Positions 968 to 6,783 of a DNA stretch of 64,000 bases are shown piece by piece. A program made the translations under genes and the position numbers. Source of the DNA: Thermomonas haemolytica (GTDB taxonomy: Bacteria; Pseudomonadota; Gammaproteobacteria; Xanthomonadales; Xanthomonadaceae); contig NZ_SMAP01000001.1 of assembly GCF_004346265.1 (NCBI RefSeq), forward strand, positions 434,001 to 498,000. The letters are read 5' to 3'. Within the stretch, counting starts at the first letter, position 1; each line of letters starts with the position of its first letter. The notes below the pieces were generated by a model. That model ran no database searches. It was not told the DNA's origin and saw only the letters and a list, made by a program, of their open reading frames with translations.

Positions 968-1168
968 ATGACCATCCTGCTGTTCCTGATCCCGATCAGC
1001 CTGATCCTGCTCGGCATTGCGGTGCTGGTGTTCGTGTGGGCGGTGCGCAACGGTCAGTTCGAGGATCTCGATACCCCGGCGCTGGACATCCTGCGCGATG
1101 AGCCGCCCGCGCCACCCGCCAGCCGCACCGACGATGATCGCCGCGGCGGGAGCGACCATGCCGGTTGA
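968..1168 (+). CDS. ccoS: cbb3-type cytochrome oxidase assembly protein CcoS
   Basis: This 66-residue protein has one N-terminal membrane helix (residues 3-24). A short conserved segment follows, with the pattern W-x-x-x-x-GQFEDLDTPA (about residues 24-39), the hallmark of CcoS. The tail is polar and variable. CcoS is needed for cofactor insertion into cbb3 oxidase. The gene starts 10 bp after the ATPase stop and overlaps the start of the next gene by 11 bp, so the three genes form one maturation operon. The ATG at 968 immediately precedes the membrane helix, and the length is typical of the family. Confidence 0.93.
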   Translation: MTILLFLIPISLILLGIAVLVFVWAVRNGQFEDLDTPALDILRDEPPAPPASRTDDDRRGGSDHAG

Positions 1169-1883
1169 TTTGCTGGTGCTGGTGCCGGCGCTGCTGGCCG
1201 GCCTGCTGGGCGGCGCGCACTGCGTGGCGATGTGCGGCGGCATCGCCACCGGATTCTCCATGCACGCACGCGGCGCGGTCGCGGCGCTGCAGCCGAACCT
1301 GGGACGGGTGGCCGGCTACGTACTGGCCGGGGCGCTGGTGGGCGGCCTCGGCGGCGGCCTGCTCGGGGTCGCCCGCATGCCGCAGCTGGGCATCGCGATG
1401 CGCGCGCTGGTCGGCCTGGTGCTGATCGTGGCCGGACTGCGCATGCTGGACCGCCGCGGCCGCCTGCCGCGTTTCTCCGGCGGGCCCGGCAGCCGCCTGT
1501 GGCAGGCGCTGCGTCCCCTGCAGCGGCGATTGCTGCCGGCCGACACCGCCGGCAAGCGCCTGCTGCTGGGCGCCCTCTGGGGCTGGATGCCGTGCGGCCT
1601 CTCCACCACCCTGCTGGCCGCGGCCTGGCTCAGCGCCAGCGCCTTGCACGGCGCGCTGACGATGGCGGCCTTCGGGCTCGGCACCCTGCCGGTGATGGTG
1701 CCGCTGACCTGGGCCGGCGCGCGCATCGGCCAGCGCCTGCAGCGCGGCCCGTTCCGCAATGCCGCCGCCGCGCTGGTGGTGGCCTCCGGCCTGCTCACCG
1801 TGGCCGCGCCGTGGCTGATGCAGGCCCCGGCCCTGCACGGCCTGCTGGGCGCGCTGGGCTGCCGCAGCCTGCCGCCGGGCTGA
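1158..1883 (+). CDS. Sulfite exporter TauE/SafE-family membrane protein (cbb3 cluster)
   Basis: This is a 241-residue polytopic membrane protein with about six hydrophobic segments. The N-terminus contains the family signature GGAHCVAMCGG (about residues 15-25), with its Cys pair. A second half-repeat contains LLGALWGWMPCGLSTTLL. This subfamily is commonly encoded next to ccoI/ccoS and is related to copper delivery to cbb3 oxidase, although it is named after sulfite export. The ATG at 1158 lies inside the end of ccoS (11-bp overlap), indicating translational coupling. The frame is open further upstream, but the ATG at 1158 puts the GGAHC motif in the first helix as in relatives. Function in copper or heme handling is inferred from context only. 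Confidence 0.85.
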   Translation: MPVDLLVLVPALLAGLLGGAHCVAMCGGIATGFSMHARGAVAALQPNLGRVAGYVLAGALVGGLGGGLLGVARMPQLGIAMRALVGLVLIVAGLRMLDRRGRLPRFSGGPGSRLWQALRPLQRRLLPADTAGKRLLLGALWGWMPCGLSTTLLAAAWLSASALHGALTMAAFGLGTLPVMVPLTWAGARIGQRLQRGPFRNAAAALVVASGLLTVAAPWLMQAPALHGLLGALGCRSLPPG

Positions 1884-1928
1884 GCGCCGCGGGCCTGCCG
1901 CGACGCCCAGCGCAGCAGCTGCGACGTG

Positions 1929-2186
1929 CTACTTCTTCGCCGCCGGGGCCGCCGGGCACTTGATGAACTTGCCCTTGTCGTCGCGGCAGGCCTGCTTGGC
2001 GGGCTTGGCGGCGGCCTCGCATTTGATGAACTTGCCCTTGCCGTCGCGGCAGCGGTTGGCGGACTGGACCTCGCCCTTGGCGGAGGCGGCAGCCGGCTTG
2101 GCGGCAGTGGCCTGGGGCGTGGCGAAGGCACTGGAGGCGAACAGCAGGGTGACGGCCAGCGCGATGGACGGCAGTACGGTATTCAT
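1929..2186 (-). CDS. Small secreted protein with two CRDxKGKFIKC motifs
   Basis: This 85-residue protein of unknown function has a clear Sec signal peptide: a hydrophobic core at residues 7-20 with probable cleavage after AFA. The mature part is Ala/Lys-rich and carries two copies of an 11-residue motif, CRDGKGKFIKC and CRDDKGKFIKC, about 20 residues apart. Each copy has one Cys at either end, which suggests two small disulfide loops or a metal/ligand-binding repeat in the periplasm. It is convergent with the upstream cbb3 cluster and divergent from the diguanylate cyclase gene. I do not recognise a named family. Confidence 0.72.
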   Translation of the reverse strand: MNTVLPSIALAVTLLFASSAFATPQATAAKPAAASAKGEVQSANRCRDGKGKFIKCEAAAKPAKQACRDDKGKFIKCPAAPAAKK

Positions 2187-3687: not shown

Positions 3688-5391
3688 TCAGCGCGCGGCG
3701 ACGGGTGGCGCGGCGTGGTGCACGCCCGCCACCGCGCGCCCGGACGGATCGGCCATCGCCGCGAACGCGGCATCCCAGGCGATCGCCGCCGGCGAGGAAC
3801 AGGCGATCGATTTCCCGCCCGGCACCGTCTGCGCCGCCGCCTGCCCGGGGAAGCACTGCTCGAACAGGTGGCGGTACCAGTACGCCTCCTTGCTTTGCGG
3901 CGGGTTGACCGGAAAGCGCGCGGCCGCGGCCGCCAACACGCGGTCGGAGACCTGCGCCTCGGCATGCGCCTTGAGGCCGTCGATCCAGCCGTAGCCAACG
4001 CCGTCGCTGAACTGCTCCTTCTGCCGCCACAGGATCTCGTCCGGCAGATACCCGGTGAAAGCCGCACGCAGGATGCCCTTCTCCATCCGCTGCGGCCCGG
4101 CGTCGCCCTTGCGCACCATCTTGTGGGCGGCGTCCATGCGCATCGCCATCTCGATGAACTCCACGTCCAGGAACGGCACCCGCGCCTCCACGCCCCAGGC
4201 CATCATCGCCTTGTTCGCGCGCAGGCAGTCGAACTGGTGCAGCGCCTCCAGCTTGCGCACCAGTTCTTCGTGGAAGGCGCGCGCATCCGGTGCCTTGTGG
4301 AAGTAGAGGTAGCCGCCGAACAGCTCGTCGCTGCCCTCGCCGGACAGCACCATCTTCACCCCCATCGCCTTGATCCGGCGTGCCAGCAGGAACATCGGGG
4401 TGGACGCGCGGATGGTGGTGACGTCGTAGGTCTCGACGTGGCGGATCACCTCCGGAACCGCGTCCAGCCCCTCCTCGAAGGTGTATTCGAAGCCGTGGTG
4501 CACGGTGCCCAGTGCGCGCGCGGCGACCTCGGCGGCGGCAAGATCCGGCGAGCCTTTCAGCCCGATCGCGAAACTGTGCAGGCGCGGCCACCACGCCTCG
4601 CTCCTGCCGTCATCCTCGACCCGCCGGCGGGCATGGCGGGCGGCCACTGCGGCGACCAGCGAGGAATCCAGCCCGCCGGACAGCAGCACCCCGTAGGGCA
4701 CGTCGCTCATCAGCTGCCGCCGCACCGCGGCCTCGAACGCCTGGCGCAGTTCGGCCAGCGGCACCGCAACGCCTTCCACCGCGTCGTAGTTCCGCCAGGG
4801 CCGCGCGTAGTACCGCGTCAGCTCGCCGGTTGCGCTGTCGTACCAGTGGCCGGGCGGGAACGGTGCCACGTCGGCGCAATCGTCCACCAGCGCCTTCATC
4901 TCCGAGGCCACGCGCAGGCGGCCTTGCGCGTCATGGCCCCAGTACAGCGGCACGACGCCAATGGGGTCGCGGGCGATGAGCACGCGCCCGCGCGCGCGGT
5001 CCCACAGCGTGAACGCGAAGATGCCGTTGAGGCGGTTCAGGAAGGTGGCCGGATCGTCCTCGCGGTACAGCGCGTTGATCACCTCGCAGTCGGAGGCGGT
5101 CTGGAACGCATAGGGCTGGCGCAGCGCGTCCTTCAGCACGGCGTGGTTGTAGATCTCGCCATTGACCGCCAGTACCAGCGCACCGTCTTCCGACAGCAGC
5201 GGCTGGGCGCCACCGGCCGGATCGACGATGGCCAGGCGCTCGTGCACCAGGATGGCGCCGGCGTCCACGTGGACGCCGCTCCAGTCCGGCCCGCGGTGGC
5301 GCTGCCGGCGGGAACGGTCGAGCGCCTCGCGGCGCAGGGCATGCAGGTCGTCCCCGGGCTGCAGGCCGAAGATGGCGAAGATGGAGCACAT
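3688..5391 (-). CDS. asnB: Glutamine-hydrolysing asparagine synthase B
   Basis: AsnB converts aspartate, glutamine and ATP to asparagine. The 567-residue length matches the enterobacterial enzyme (about 554). The start at 5391 gives MCSIFAIFG, placing the amidotransferase nucleophile at Cys2 after Met removal. The glutaminase domain shows RGPDWSG, NGEIYNH and SDCEV. The synthetase domain has the PP-loop SGGLDSS and the SGEGSDELFGGYLYF motif. The ribosome-binding site AAGGA lies 8 nt before this ATG, which settles the start. The C-terminal 30 residues are variable. The gene follows dapE on the same strand but is separated from it by a short Asn-rich leader ORF and a strong intrinsic terminator (5464-5608). 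It is therefore probably under transcription attenuation rather than simple read-through from dapE. Confidence 0.95.
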   Translation of the reverse strand: MCSIFAIFGLQPGDDLHALRREALDRSRRQRHRGPDWSGVHVDAGAILVHERLAIVDPAGGAQPLLSEDGALVLAVNGEIYNHAVLKDALRQPYAFQTASDCEVINALYREDDPATFLNRLNGIFAFTLWDRARGRVLIARDPIGVVPLYWGHDAQGRLRVASEMKALVDDCADVAPFPPGHWYDSATGELTRYYARPWRNYDAVEGVAVPLAELRQAFEAAVRRQLMSDVPYGVLLSGGLDSSLVAAVAARHARRRVEDDGRSEAWWPRLHSFAIGLKGSPDLAAAEVAARALGTVHHGFEYTFEEGLDAVPEVIRHVETYDVTTIRASTPMFLLARRIKAMGVKMVLSGEGSDELFGGYLYFHKAPDARAFHEELVRKLEALHQFDCLRANKAMMAWGVEARVPFLDVEFIEMAMRMDAAHKMVRKGDAGPQRMEKGILRAAFTGYLPDEILWRQKEQFSDGVGYGWIDGLKAHAEAQVSDRVLAAAAARFPVNPPQSKEAYWYRHLFEQCFPGQAAAQTVPGGKSIACSSPAAIAWDAAFAAMADPSGRAVAGVHHAAPPVAAR

Positions 5392-5463
5392 GGCGAAAGT
5401 CCTTGGCGTGGGCGGTGGAAGGAATGAATGAAGGTGGAAAGAAGCGGGAAGGACGGCGCAACG

Positions 5464-5492
5464 AAAAAGCCCGCATCTTGCGATGCGGGCTT
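5464..5492 (-). terminator. Intrinsic terminator in the asnB leader (attenuator)
   Basis: On the minus strand an 11-bp perfect stem (5' arm 5492-5482, 3' arm 5477-5467) closes on a GCAA tetraloop. It is followed directly by a U-run, seen as aaaaa on the plus strand at 5464-5468. It sits 73 bp upstream of the asnB start and 30 bp downstream of the stop codon of the Asn-rich leader ORF, so it ends transcription before asnB unless disrupted. Its 5' arm can instead pair over 7 bp with the end of the leader ORF (5532-5538), an antiterminator arrangement. Confidence 0.85.
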
Positions 5493-5521
5493 GGGAGGGA
5501 TTCGGCTTGCTGCTGCTTCGC

Positions 5522-5608
5522 CTAGGCGCGGGCCCGCAGCCGCGCACGCTGGTGGGCGCCGCGATTATTGCGGTTGAGGAAGATCGCGCTGGCGCTGCGG
5601 GACGGCAT
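5522..5608 (-). CDS. Putative asparagine leader peptide of asnB (28 codons)
   Basis: This small minus-strand ORF runs from ATG at 5608 to TAG at 5522-5524. The encoded peptide contains FLNRNNRG at residues 10-17, with Asn codons at 12, 14 and 15. Residues 14 and 15 use AAT, while genes in this window strongly prefer AAC. The distal half is Arg/Ala-rich. It lies between dapE and asnB and is followed by the terminator at 5464-5492. RNA segments around the ORF form alternative pairings: 5594-5601 with 5533-5540 (8 bp) and 5532-5538 with 5484-5490 (7 bp). A ribosome finishing translation would cover the middle segment and allow termination. A ribosome stalled at the Asn codons would leave it free to form the antiterminator. 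This is inferred from sequence only; no family is known to me. Confidence 0.6.
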   Translation of the reverse strand: MPSRSASAIFLNRNNRGAHQRARLRARA

Positions 5609-5614
5609 GGGCCG

Positions 5615-5644
5615 ACTATTGCACGCCCGTCGTGGCGCGCGCAA
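5615..5644 (-). promoter_or_regulatory. Possible promoter of the asnB leader transcript
   Basis: On the minus strand TTGCGC (5644-5639) is followed after 18 bp by AATAGT (5620-5615), with TG upstream of the -10 (TGCAATAGT). The -10 ends 6 bp before the leader ATG. Transcription would start at or next to the start codon, giving a leaderless leader ORF. No Shine-Dalgarno sequence precedes the ATG, which fits. It is a sequence match only. Confidence 0.4.
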
Positions 5645-5652
5645 GCGGCGGC

Positions 5653-6783
5653 TCAGACGCACAGCAGGCGTTCCATCAGGGTTGCGTACAGCGCAGGCAG
5701 GCGCTCGAGGTCGGCCACGCGCACGTGTTCGTCGACCTGGTGGATGCTGGCGTTGACCGGGCCGATCTCGATGCACTGCGCGCCCAGCGGGGCGATGAAG
5801 CGCGCATCCGAGGTGCCGCCGCCGGTGCTCTCCTCCGGCGGGTGGCCGGAAAACTCGGCGAGCACCGCGCGCGCGACCGCGCGCAGGCGGCCTTCCGGGG
5901 TATAGAACGGCTCGCCGCCGCGGTGCCAGGTGATGGCGTAATCCAGCCCGTGCGCGCGCAGCACGGCCTCGCATTCGGCTTCCAGCTGCTCGGCGCGCCA
6001 GTGCGGGTTGTAGCGCAGGTTGAACAGCACCGAAAGCTCGCCCGGGATCACGTTGTTGGCGCCGGTGCCCGCATGTACGTTGCTGATCTGCAGGCTGGTC
6101 GGCGGGAACGATTCATAGCCGTCGTCCCAGCGCCGGGCGGTGAGTTCCGCCAGCGCCGGCAGCGCCTGGTGGATCGGGTTGCGCGCCTTCTCCGGATACG
6201 CCACGTGGCCCTGGATGCCGCGCACCATCAGCGTGGCCGACAGCGTGCCGCGGCGGCCGACCCGCAGCAGGTCGCCCAGCACCTGCTTCGAGGACGGCTC
6301 GCCGGTGATGCACCAGTCGATGCGCTCGCCGCGTTCGCGCAGCACCTGCGCAACCTTGCGCACGCCATCGATGGCCTCGCCCTCCTCGTCCGAAGTCAGC
6401 AGCAAGGCCACCGTGCCCGGATGCGCGGGATGCGCGGCGACGAAGCGCTCCAGCGCCACCACGAAGGCCGCCACGCTGCCCTTCATGTCGGCGGCGCCGC
6501 GCCCGTACAGCAGGCCATCGCGCACCTCGGGAACGAACGGATCGCTGGCCCACGCCGCACGCGGGCCGGGCGGCACCACGTCGGTGTGGCCCAGGAGCAG
6601 CAGCACCGGGCCACCGCGGCCGTGGCTCGCCCAGAGGTTGTCCACCGCCCCGAAGCGCAGGTGCTCGACGGCGAACCCCGCGGCCTGCAGGCGCTGCGCG
6701 ATCACTGCCTGGCAACCAGCATCCTCTGGCGTCACCGACGGCCGCGCGATGAGATCCCGGGTGAGTTGCAGCACATCGCTCAT
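5653..6783 (-). CDS. dapE: Succinyl-diaminopimelate desuccinylase
   Basis: DapE hydrolyses N-succinyl-LL-2,6-diaminopimelate in the succinylase branch of lysine and peptidoglycan precursor synthesis. The 376-residue protein shows the M20 metallopeptidase ligands: [10 protein letters not shown] with His66, GRGAADMKG with Asp99, the SDEEGE pair at 133-134, and a late His in SIHQVDEH. The ATG at 6783 is preceded at 9 nt by GGAGAAGGA; the alternative TTG at 6792 would sit inside that ribosome-binding site. dapD, encoding the enzyme two steps earlier, lies about 3.3 kb upstream on the same strand. The gene order ArsC-family protein then dapE matches yffB-dapE in E. coli. Confidence 0.95.

Follow-up and report, generated by a model that had tools for sequence, protein, structure and literature searches.

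Upstream of the asnB gene of Thermomonas haemolytica, within the 64,000-nt stretch of DNA analysed here (the window), lies an element that we read, with a probability of about 0.93 for both mechanism class and target gene, as a conserved ribosome-mediated asparagine attenuator. Comparison with relatives shows Asn codons kept in one phase, a terminator, a covarying pairing between an antiterminator segment 2 and a terminator segment 3 (2:3), a maintained geometry of the stop codon, a maintained promoter-ATG spacing and a link to asnB. From these features we infer translation of the ORF, ribosome stalling, termination, antitermination and a response to asparagine. An earlier note on this DNA had proposed an Asn leader-peptide attenuator of asnB, and the comparative tests that could be run, on the ORF, its Asn codons, the terminator and compensatory changes, support that proposal.

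The Asn ORF, the terminator and the 7-bp competing pairing were located on the minus strand at the positions given by the earlier note (Table 1). Re-derivation of the coordinates reproduced the 28-codon ORF, whose codons 12, 14 and 15 specify Asn (AAC, AAT, AAT), the 7-bp complementarity of segments 2 and 3, and the 11-bp stem with its U-rich tract before asnB; the originally described span, 5464–5644, runs from the U-run through the first base of the -35-like box. The gene names asnB and dapE were verified against NCBIfam models. AAT, said to be rare in this genome, indeed accounts for only one of eight Asn codons in the adjoining asnB and none of eight in dapE.

Table 1. Coordinates of the predicted asnB leader and related features (window positions, or positions within the named loci; A1, A2 and R1 are described in the text)
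Feature	Coordinates	Strand	Basis
-35-like hexamer TTGCGC	5639..5644	-	sequence; relatives' promoter motif
-10-like hexamer AATAGT	5615..5620	-	18 nt past -35, 6 nt before ATG
Leader peptide ORF, 28 codons, MPSRSASAIFLNRNNRGAHQRARLRARA*	5522..5608, ATG at 5608	-	sequence and relatives
Regulatory Asn codon 12 (AAC)	5573..5575	-	sequence
Regulatory Asn codons 14 and 15 (AAT AAT)	5564..5569	-	sequence; leader AAT excess in relatives
Conserved hairpin, starting directly 3' of last Asn codon	5541..5563	-	RNAalifold, A2, 13 sequences, columns 13-35
Segment 2 (TGCGGGC), antiterminator 5' half, within ORF	5532..5538	-	stop codon begins 7 nt later
Segment 3 (GCCCGCA), antiterminator 3' half and terminator 5' arm	5484..5490	-	2:3 pairing on A1, A2
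Intrinsic terminator hairpin (3:4), 11 bp, GCAA loop	5467..5492	-	RNAalifold; R1 match 5457-5575, 40.5 bits
Terminator U-rich tract	5460..5466	-	sequence
asnB, asparagine synthase B, controlled gene (predicted)	3688..5391, ATG at 5391	-	NF006949 852.9 bits, TIGR01536 417.4 bits
dapE	5653..6783	-	TIGR01246
ilvC leader	L202 near 975-1081; ilvC 1147-2157		ilvC by TIGR00465
ilvC-type leaders, further loci	L198-L201, L205-L207, L209, L212, L214, L217		R1 match, by eye

At least three Asn codons occur in 33 of the 117,070 stop-free eight-codon windows found in the six frames of the 64 kb, so that three in eight codons is, in the window alone, mildly unusual; conservation decides. The regions upstream of asnB, 350 nt each, were therefore collected from 110 relatives' loci and 80 named GTDB records; nine of these 190 regions were duplicates, leaving 181 distinct ones. 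The 110 loci comprised 30 plus 80 picked, mostly for greater similarity, from asnB matches in 170 of 198 genomes, many of which were partial or weak. Among the 181 regions, at least four Asn codons in eight were found in 119 on the sense strand and in 2 on the antisense strand, compared with 45 of 3620 dinucleotide shuffles. The full layout, defined as at least three Asn in eight codons followed within 130 nt of the stop by an intrinsic-terminator-like hairpin, was present in 128 regions. Two of these (L154, Shewanella; L176, Colwellia) were discarded as chance occurrences whose layout and 2:3 pairing do not fit. The remaining 126 all come from the order of the window and carry 3–7 Asn per eight codons. 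Thus, the comparison with relatives that had been suggested for this element finds ORF, Asn codons and terminator kept with asnB in 126 of 181 regions. The window copy is a weak one, with three Asn codons; 116 of the 126 leaders have four to seven in their best eight codons. Examples from relatives include MSFQRANNNRNNASPPRVGD (L064), ...ALNNNNANNNTRIDGWAGV (L080), MSIRLATAVNNNNRNNLRANNRARPMRDCALGR from Stenotrophomonas maltophilia LMG 978 (L121) and MVFQRANLNNANRNNLRANNRARPMRVCD from Xanthomonas euroxanthea (L115). Outside the 126, three loci (L052, L137 and L140) carry an Asn ORF and, after it, a hairpin whose T-run is poor.

By family, the leader was found among the 110 loci in 86 of 92 from the window's own family, 3/3 from f2, 8/8 from f12, 0/6 from f9 and 0/1 from f5, all of these families belonging to the window's order. 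Among the named records it was present in 20 of 23 Lysobacteraceae (a count that takes as negative L180, the duplicate of L106, a locus with no Asn leader), 13 of 13 Rhodanobacteraceae and three of four Lysobacterales of no family, and the bearers include Xanthomonas, Stenotrophomonas, Lysobacter, Luteimonas, Rhodanobacter and Dyella. No Asn leader was retained in the 29 named records from other orders (0/29 after dropping L154 and L176), and one of 11 unplaced named records has a leader, being a duplicate of a positive locus. The six own-family loci without a counted leader comprise L105–L108, whose asnB is divergent (64–66% identical), L052, which has the Asn ORF mentioned above, and L068, which has none. 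A class-wide search detected window-type asnB at E<=1e-100 in only 4 of 274 genomes, three of them the window genome and two sampled relatives, and therefore says little about other asnB types.

Several individual loci deserve mention. In L068 (genome G027) asnB is 77% identical and 1471 upstream bases contain no Asn leader, while the congeneric L050 and L076 have one; perhaps the leader was recently lost or the region rearranged. Three asnB genes that are 74–81% identical to that of the window, in records bearing the names of distant phyla (Rhodococcus sp. RD6.2, L129; Holophagales UBA5704, L124; a Deltaproteobacteria MAG, L148), lack the Asn leader and point either to horizontal transfer or to mislabelled or contaminated contigs. 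At five loci (L051, L055, L069, L127 and L128) the leader terminator ends some 170–360 nt before asnB, and the gap may hold a further gene or promoter.

The RNA structure was examined on two alignments. A1 comprises 34 of the 38 class II leaders aligned with MAFFT (L046, L049, L074 and L086 were excluded on visual inspection because of their length or layout), and A2 represents the window's subgroup with 13 sequences, namely 12 of the 13 class W leaders (L006 left out) plus L015. On A1, RNAalifold predicted de novo two helices, corresponding to a hairpin after the Asn codons and to the terminator; the former, which contains part of segment 2, starts at the final base of the last Asn codon. In these two helices 96.4% of alignment cells pair, compared with 31–49% after sliding, and seven pairs carry two-sided changes, a number reached by 2 of 500 shuffles. 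The 2:3 helix pairs in 89.9% of cells, a figure that falls to 25–43% when the partner is slid by 1–3 columns, and 17 of 34 sequences lack an intact outermost pair. It holds 11 cells with two-sided changes against 3.8 in shuffles (0/500 as high), and its covariation score likewise lies above all shuffles; the number of pairs with a two-sided change (2; 320/500 shuffles as high) and that of further pair types (3; 499/500) do not stand out. In all, 2:3 covariation exceeds the shuffles on three of five measures, with relatedness not removed by the shuffling. The pair at columns 26:83 is G-C in 24 sequences, A-U in 10 and broken in none of the 34, and the same segment-3 base is paired in the terminator as C-G in 24, U-G in 6 and U-A in 4. 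Thus, six sequences keep a Watson-Crick pair in the antiterminator while the terminator makes do with U-G. On a rough FastTree tree of the first 180 AsnB residues, this C/T base changed at least six times.

In the window's subgroup the hairpin again starts right after the Asn codons, with segment 2 beside it rather than in it. Its 5' arm would lie under a ribosome stalled at the last of these codons and takes the place of segment 1 in the present reading. On A2 the 2:3 helix pairs in 86.8% of cells and its covariation stays within the shuffle range (114/500 as high); these sequences may be too alike to reveal covariation. The compensatory changes anticipated for both stems were accordingly recovered on A1, for class II, but not for 2:3 within the subgroup of the window itself. 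Across all leaders, the core motif CCTGC is matched by CAGG in 12 of 12 cases and CCCGT by ACGGG in one, while CCCGC goes with GCGGG (93), ACGGG (6), ATGGG (2), GTGGG (1), GTAGG (1) or no partner (10), a table that is supportive but partly circular because segment 2 was selected for pairing best with segment 3. The same circularity in part affects a permutation test, with relatedness again not removed, in which the leaders' own mean was 19.6 against 17.5 (sd 0.2) over 2000 permuted draws, with the shuffle p per leader averaging 0.11; the main weight is therefore placed on the MAFFT-aligned columns of A1. The 8-bp 1:2 pairing that the earlier note had drawn between 5594-5601 and 5533-5540 does appear in the minimum-energy fold of the naked full leader, but it is not conserved. 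Its shuffle p in the window is 0.08, and at least seven contiguous pairs (G-U allowed) between the N-terminal-coding part and segment 2 occur in 49 of 125 leaders, with p<0.05 in just 6 and a mean p of 0.65. Segment 1 at 5594-5601 was thus rejected as a conserved part and is regarded as particular to the window genome.

The position of the stop codon is also maintained. It starts 6–8 nt past segment 2 in 91 of the 126 leaders, and 7 nt past it in the window, where the earlier note had placed it just beyond this segment, so that a terminating ribosome would cover segment 2. The suspicion that the Arg-rich distal half of the peptide is incidental did not hold, given that this half encodes the conserved segment 2 and hairpin, with segment 2 at a largely maintained distance from the stop. 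To model the ribosome in folding calculations, its footprint was assumed to reach 12 nt, counted from where the A-site codon begins. Over the 126 leaders, the upstream pairing of segment 3 averaged 0.91 with the ribosome on the Asn codons versus 0.35 with the ribosome at the stop, and the difference in sequestration, counting all upstream pairing, exceeded 0.3 in 115 leaders. When 2:3 pairs alone are counted the picture is mixed, since a stalled ribosome, compared with none, helps in 45 of 126 leaders and harms in 12; the alternative-fold check thus favours sequestration of segment 3 upon stalling but not uniformly by the 2:3 helix. In the window's subgroup, 2:3 drops from 3.3 to 1.6 pairs once the A site is occupied by the final Asn codon. 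For the window copy, the expected number of 2:3 pairs out of seven is 6.3 with codon 12 in the A site, 0.7 with codon 14 and 0.1 with codon 15; upon stalling at codons 14 or 15, segment 3 is predicted to pair with the strand adjoining segment 2, and its sequestration has a mean of 0.98 over the Asn codons and is 0.56 with the ribosome at the stop. An earlier caveat, that segment 1 lies slightly upstream of a normal stalled-ribosome footprint, is removed for class II by the hairpin that directly follows the Asn codons, but only partly for the window's subgroup. Without a ribosome, the full-length leader of the window folds into the terminator but not into 2:3, which implies that antitermination would have to be kinetic or to require a stalled ribosome.

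A promoter motif was found at a constrained distance from the start of the ORF. The pattern TTG-N16..19-nAnnnT-N5..8-start, with an in-frame ATG or GTG and every in-frame start candidate of a leader tried, fits 100 of the 126 leaders, compared with 2 of 479 other ATGs, and in 72 of the 100 the start lies exactly 6 nt after the -10 box. Among 70 leaders chosen for the -10 box only, the T at -35 is invariant (70/70). The 26 leaders without such a fit include eight from f12 and nine from named Rhodanobacteraceae. The window sequence reads TTGCGC-18-AATAGT-6-ATG, and the predicted transcription start is the A of the ATG or a neighbouring base. With its start predicted so close to the first codon, the mRNA of the leader probably lacks a 5' untranslated region and is thus leaderless.

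The reading phase of the Asn codons bears on two explanations that dispense with a sensing peptide. Within a span that opens 60 nt ahead of the final Asn codon of the cluster and closes at the stop, separate AAY runs share the phase of the longest run in 298 cases and depart from it in 7 and 11, with all runs in phase in 112 of the 126 leaders; in 55 control regions without a leader the AAY phases are distributed 161:141:129. A simple count of AAY by frame (661, 2 and 1) had been set aside in favour of this run-phase count, because the cluster itself chose the frame and tandem AAY excludes AAY in the other frames. Were the AAY stretch a nucleic-acid signal, such as an unstructured RNA or protein-binding site, with asnB controlled by a protein or through translation initiation, the shared hairpin and terminator could offer a place for a protein to act; yet neither a single phase nor the maintained distance between stop codon and segment 2 would be expected, and AAT accounts for 48% of the Asn codons in the leaders but for 16% of those in the 5' portion of asnB at the same loci, an interchange of AAT and AAC that keeps the codon meaning rather than one nucleotide string. 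We hold this explanation to be very unlikely. The element could also be an ordinary intergenic terminator of dapE preceded by a chance ORF, with the asnB promoter lying further downstream. The window by itself lends this some colour: its terminator follows dapE on that gene's own strand, and the ORF has just three Asn codons, a density reached in the window at the frequency given above. However, of the 97 leader-bearing loci of the 110-locus set, only 33 had a detected dapE upstream, indicating that the element travels with asnB and not with dapE; a promoter motif phased to the ATG lies between dapE and the ORF; and both the common phase of the AAY runs and the covariation of segment 2 with the terminator arm speak against a chance ORF. 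Little credence is accordingly left for a dapE terminator.

Two further explanations concern what is sensed. Asn T-box riboswitches occur in Firmicutes, where, as proposed for the asnB leader, tRNA-Asn charging controls Asn genes, but in the T-box the RNA binds the tRNA directly and there is no leader peptide. A tRNA- or metabolite-binding riboswitch of this sort before asnB is extremely improbable: Rfam yielded no family at gathering score in the window and, in eight relatives, none with an E value of 0.1 or below, and the conserved parts consist of an ORF and simple hairpins. If instead the attenuator is real but its stalling mainly reports general translation speed or stress, the rarity of AAT in the window's asnB and dapE would find a role, and leaderless mRNAs are said to be preferentially translated under stress in E. 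coli (PMC7298713). Nevertheless, the controlled gene makes asparagine, and the occurrence of both AAT and AAC in the clusters keeps the identity of the amino acid rather than one rare codon, which makes a general stress sensor highly unlikely.

The asparagine attenuator would thus operate as follows. Transcription would begin at the leader's ATG or beside it, probably giving a leaderless leader mRNA. With asparagine plentiful, the ribosome would pass the Asn codons, reach the stop and cover segment 2, so that 3:4 pairs and transcription ends before asnB. With asparagine short, the ribosome would stall at the Asn codons and open the hairpin right after them, leaving segment 2, or the adjoining strand, free to pair with segment 3; with segment 3 taken, no terminator would form and asnB would be transcribed. 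The switch would in this way read charged tRNA-Asn. AsnRS scored above the cut-off in 112 of 117 genomes, that of the window among them. GatB, which is required for the indirect Asp-tRNA-Asn route, was not found in the window's genome by a search that was positive in 12 of 14 control genomes, nor was AsnA, by a search positive in 2 of 14. With AsnRS present and GatB and AsnA not found, charged tRNA-Asn should depend on free asparagine.

Leader-peptide transcription attenuators of proteobacteria serve trp, his, thr, ilv, leu and phe, and a 2004 study by Vitreschak and co-workers is said to have treated the attenuators of proteobacterial amino-acid operons. We know of no attenuator with an Asn leader peptide. 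Like the classical systems, the asnB leader combines a short ORF rich in codons for the product, a terminator, a mutually exclusive antiterminator and a stop near segment 2; it differs in using Asn for its regulatory codons and in preceding asnB. The statement of the earlier note that no peptide attenuator is known for Asn agrees with the literature covered: among the open-access matches listed, no title or abstract opening names an Asn leader peptide or asnB attenuator, although the subscription literature lies mostly outside this set and could contain a report. In the portions available, the main text of Naville and Gautheret 2010 (PMC2965389) contains none of asparagin-, asnB, asnA or asnS, and that of a paper on Shewanella, which names leaders of ilvG, leuA, pheA, trp and his, lacks asparagin- (PMC2659441). 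Another paper includes Xanthomonas AsnB2 (XCV1533) with the extra genes that were assayed by qRT-PCR in connection with the sRNA sX13 (PMC3771888). Two parallels for a leaderless leader peptide have been described. In Sinorhizobium meliloti, the 5' end of the trpL leader RNA (rnTrpL) coincides with the ATG of the leader ORF, so that this transcription attenuator has a leaderless leader peptide, but its codons are Trp, the organism is an alphaproteobacterium and its start is known, whereas that of the asnB leader is predicted (PMC7298713). In mycobacteria, leaderless polycysteine short ORFs control a downstream gene by attenuation (Canestrari et al. 2020, per PMC9031893); they share with the asnB leader the contiguous codons for one amino acid and differ in the amino acid, cysteine, and in the organisms.

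The mechanism is a known one. What appears to be new is the amino acid, and a leaderless start, probable for this leader, is uncommon. If the attenuator is borne out, asparagine would become one of the few amino acids known to be sensed through leader-peptide attenuation in proteobacteria, and control of asnB without a protein regulator would be explained across an order that includes Xanthomonas, Lysobacter and Dyella. More than 100 natural variants, with a covarying antiterminator and a promoter-placed start codon, would offer a system for the study of leaderless ribosome-RNA polymerase coupling in attenuation, and the same variant series could reveal how an attenuator changes its amino-acid specificity. 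A more far-reaching version, in which this is the first Asn-specific attenuator, leaderless throughout the order Lysobacterales and derived from a branched-chain (ilv-type) attenuator by a swap of its regulatory codons within an otherwise shared RNA framework, and in which the terminated RNA or peptide may persist as an sRNA with further roles, as with S. meliloti trpL, is speculative and, in its entirety, rather unlikely.

As an independent check, a model, R1, was built from class II only, without the window's subgroup. The window leader ranks first in its own genome with this model, with an E value of 4.4e-10 (next, 8.8e-6). Of the further matches, which are more numerous, 20 were opened and judged by eye: 12 precede ilvC-like genes; one, L211, is an Asn leader ahead of a further asnB start; and the remaining seven resemble repeats or terminators that follow coding or tRNA genes. 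Branched-chain leaders (e.g., ...LVLVLITSPTGAGRSGV*) precede ilvC-like genes in the window's genus and in one other genus. These ilvC attenuators (L202, L205 and others) resemble the Asn leader in layout, in GGTGCGGG near the stop, in the terminator CCCCGCACC and in their detection by R1, and differ from it in that the regulatory codons spell LVLVLIT and the controlled gene is ilvC. Being attenuators of a known kind with the same layout, they serve as a positive control for R1 and are perhaps relatives of the Asn leader. L211 and L024, on two contigs of a fragmented genome (G054), carry near-identical Asn leaders beside asnB starts and represent either a second copy or an assembly duplicate. 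Finally, L204 in the window genome (C17:287-373) and L213 in genome G018 of the same genus contain a terminator-like element, CAAGGCCCGCAACGCAAGTTGCGGGCCTTG, that is not a leader and that in L204 is partly duplicated just upstream.
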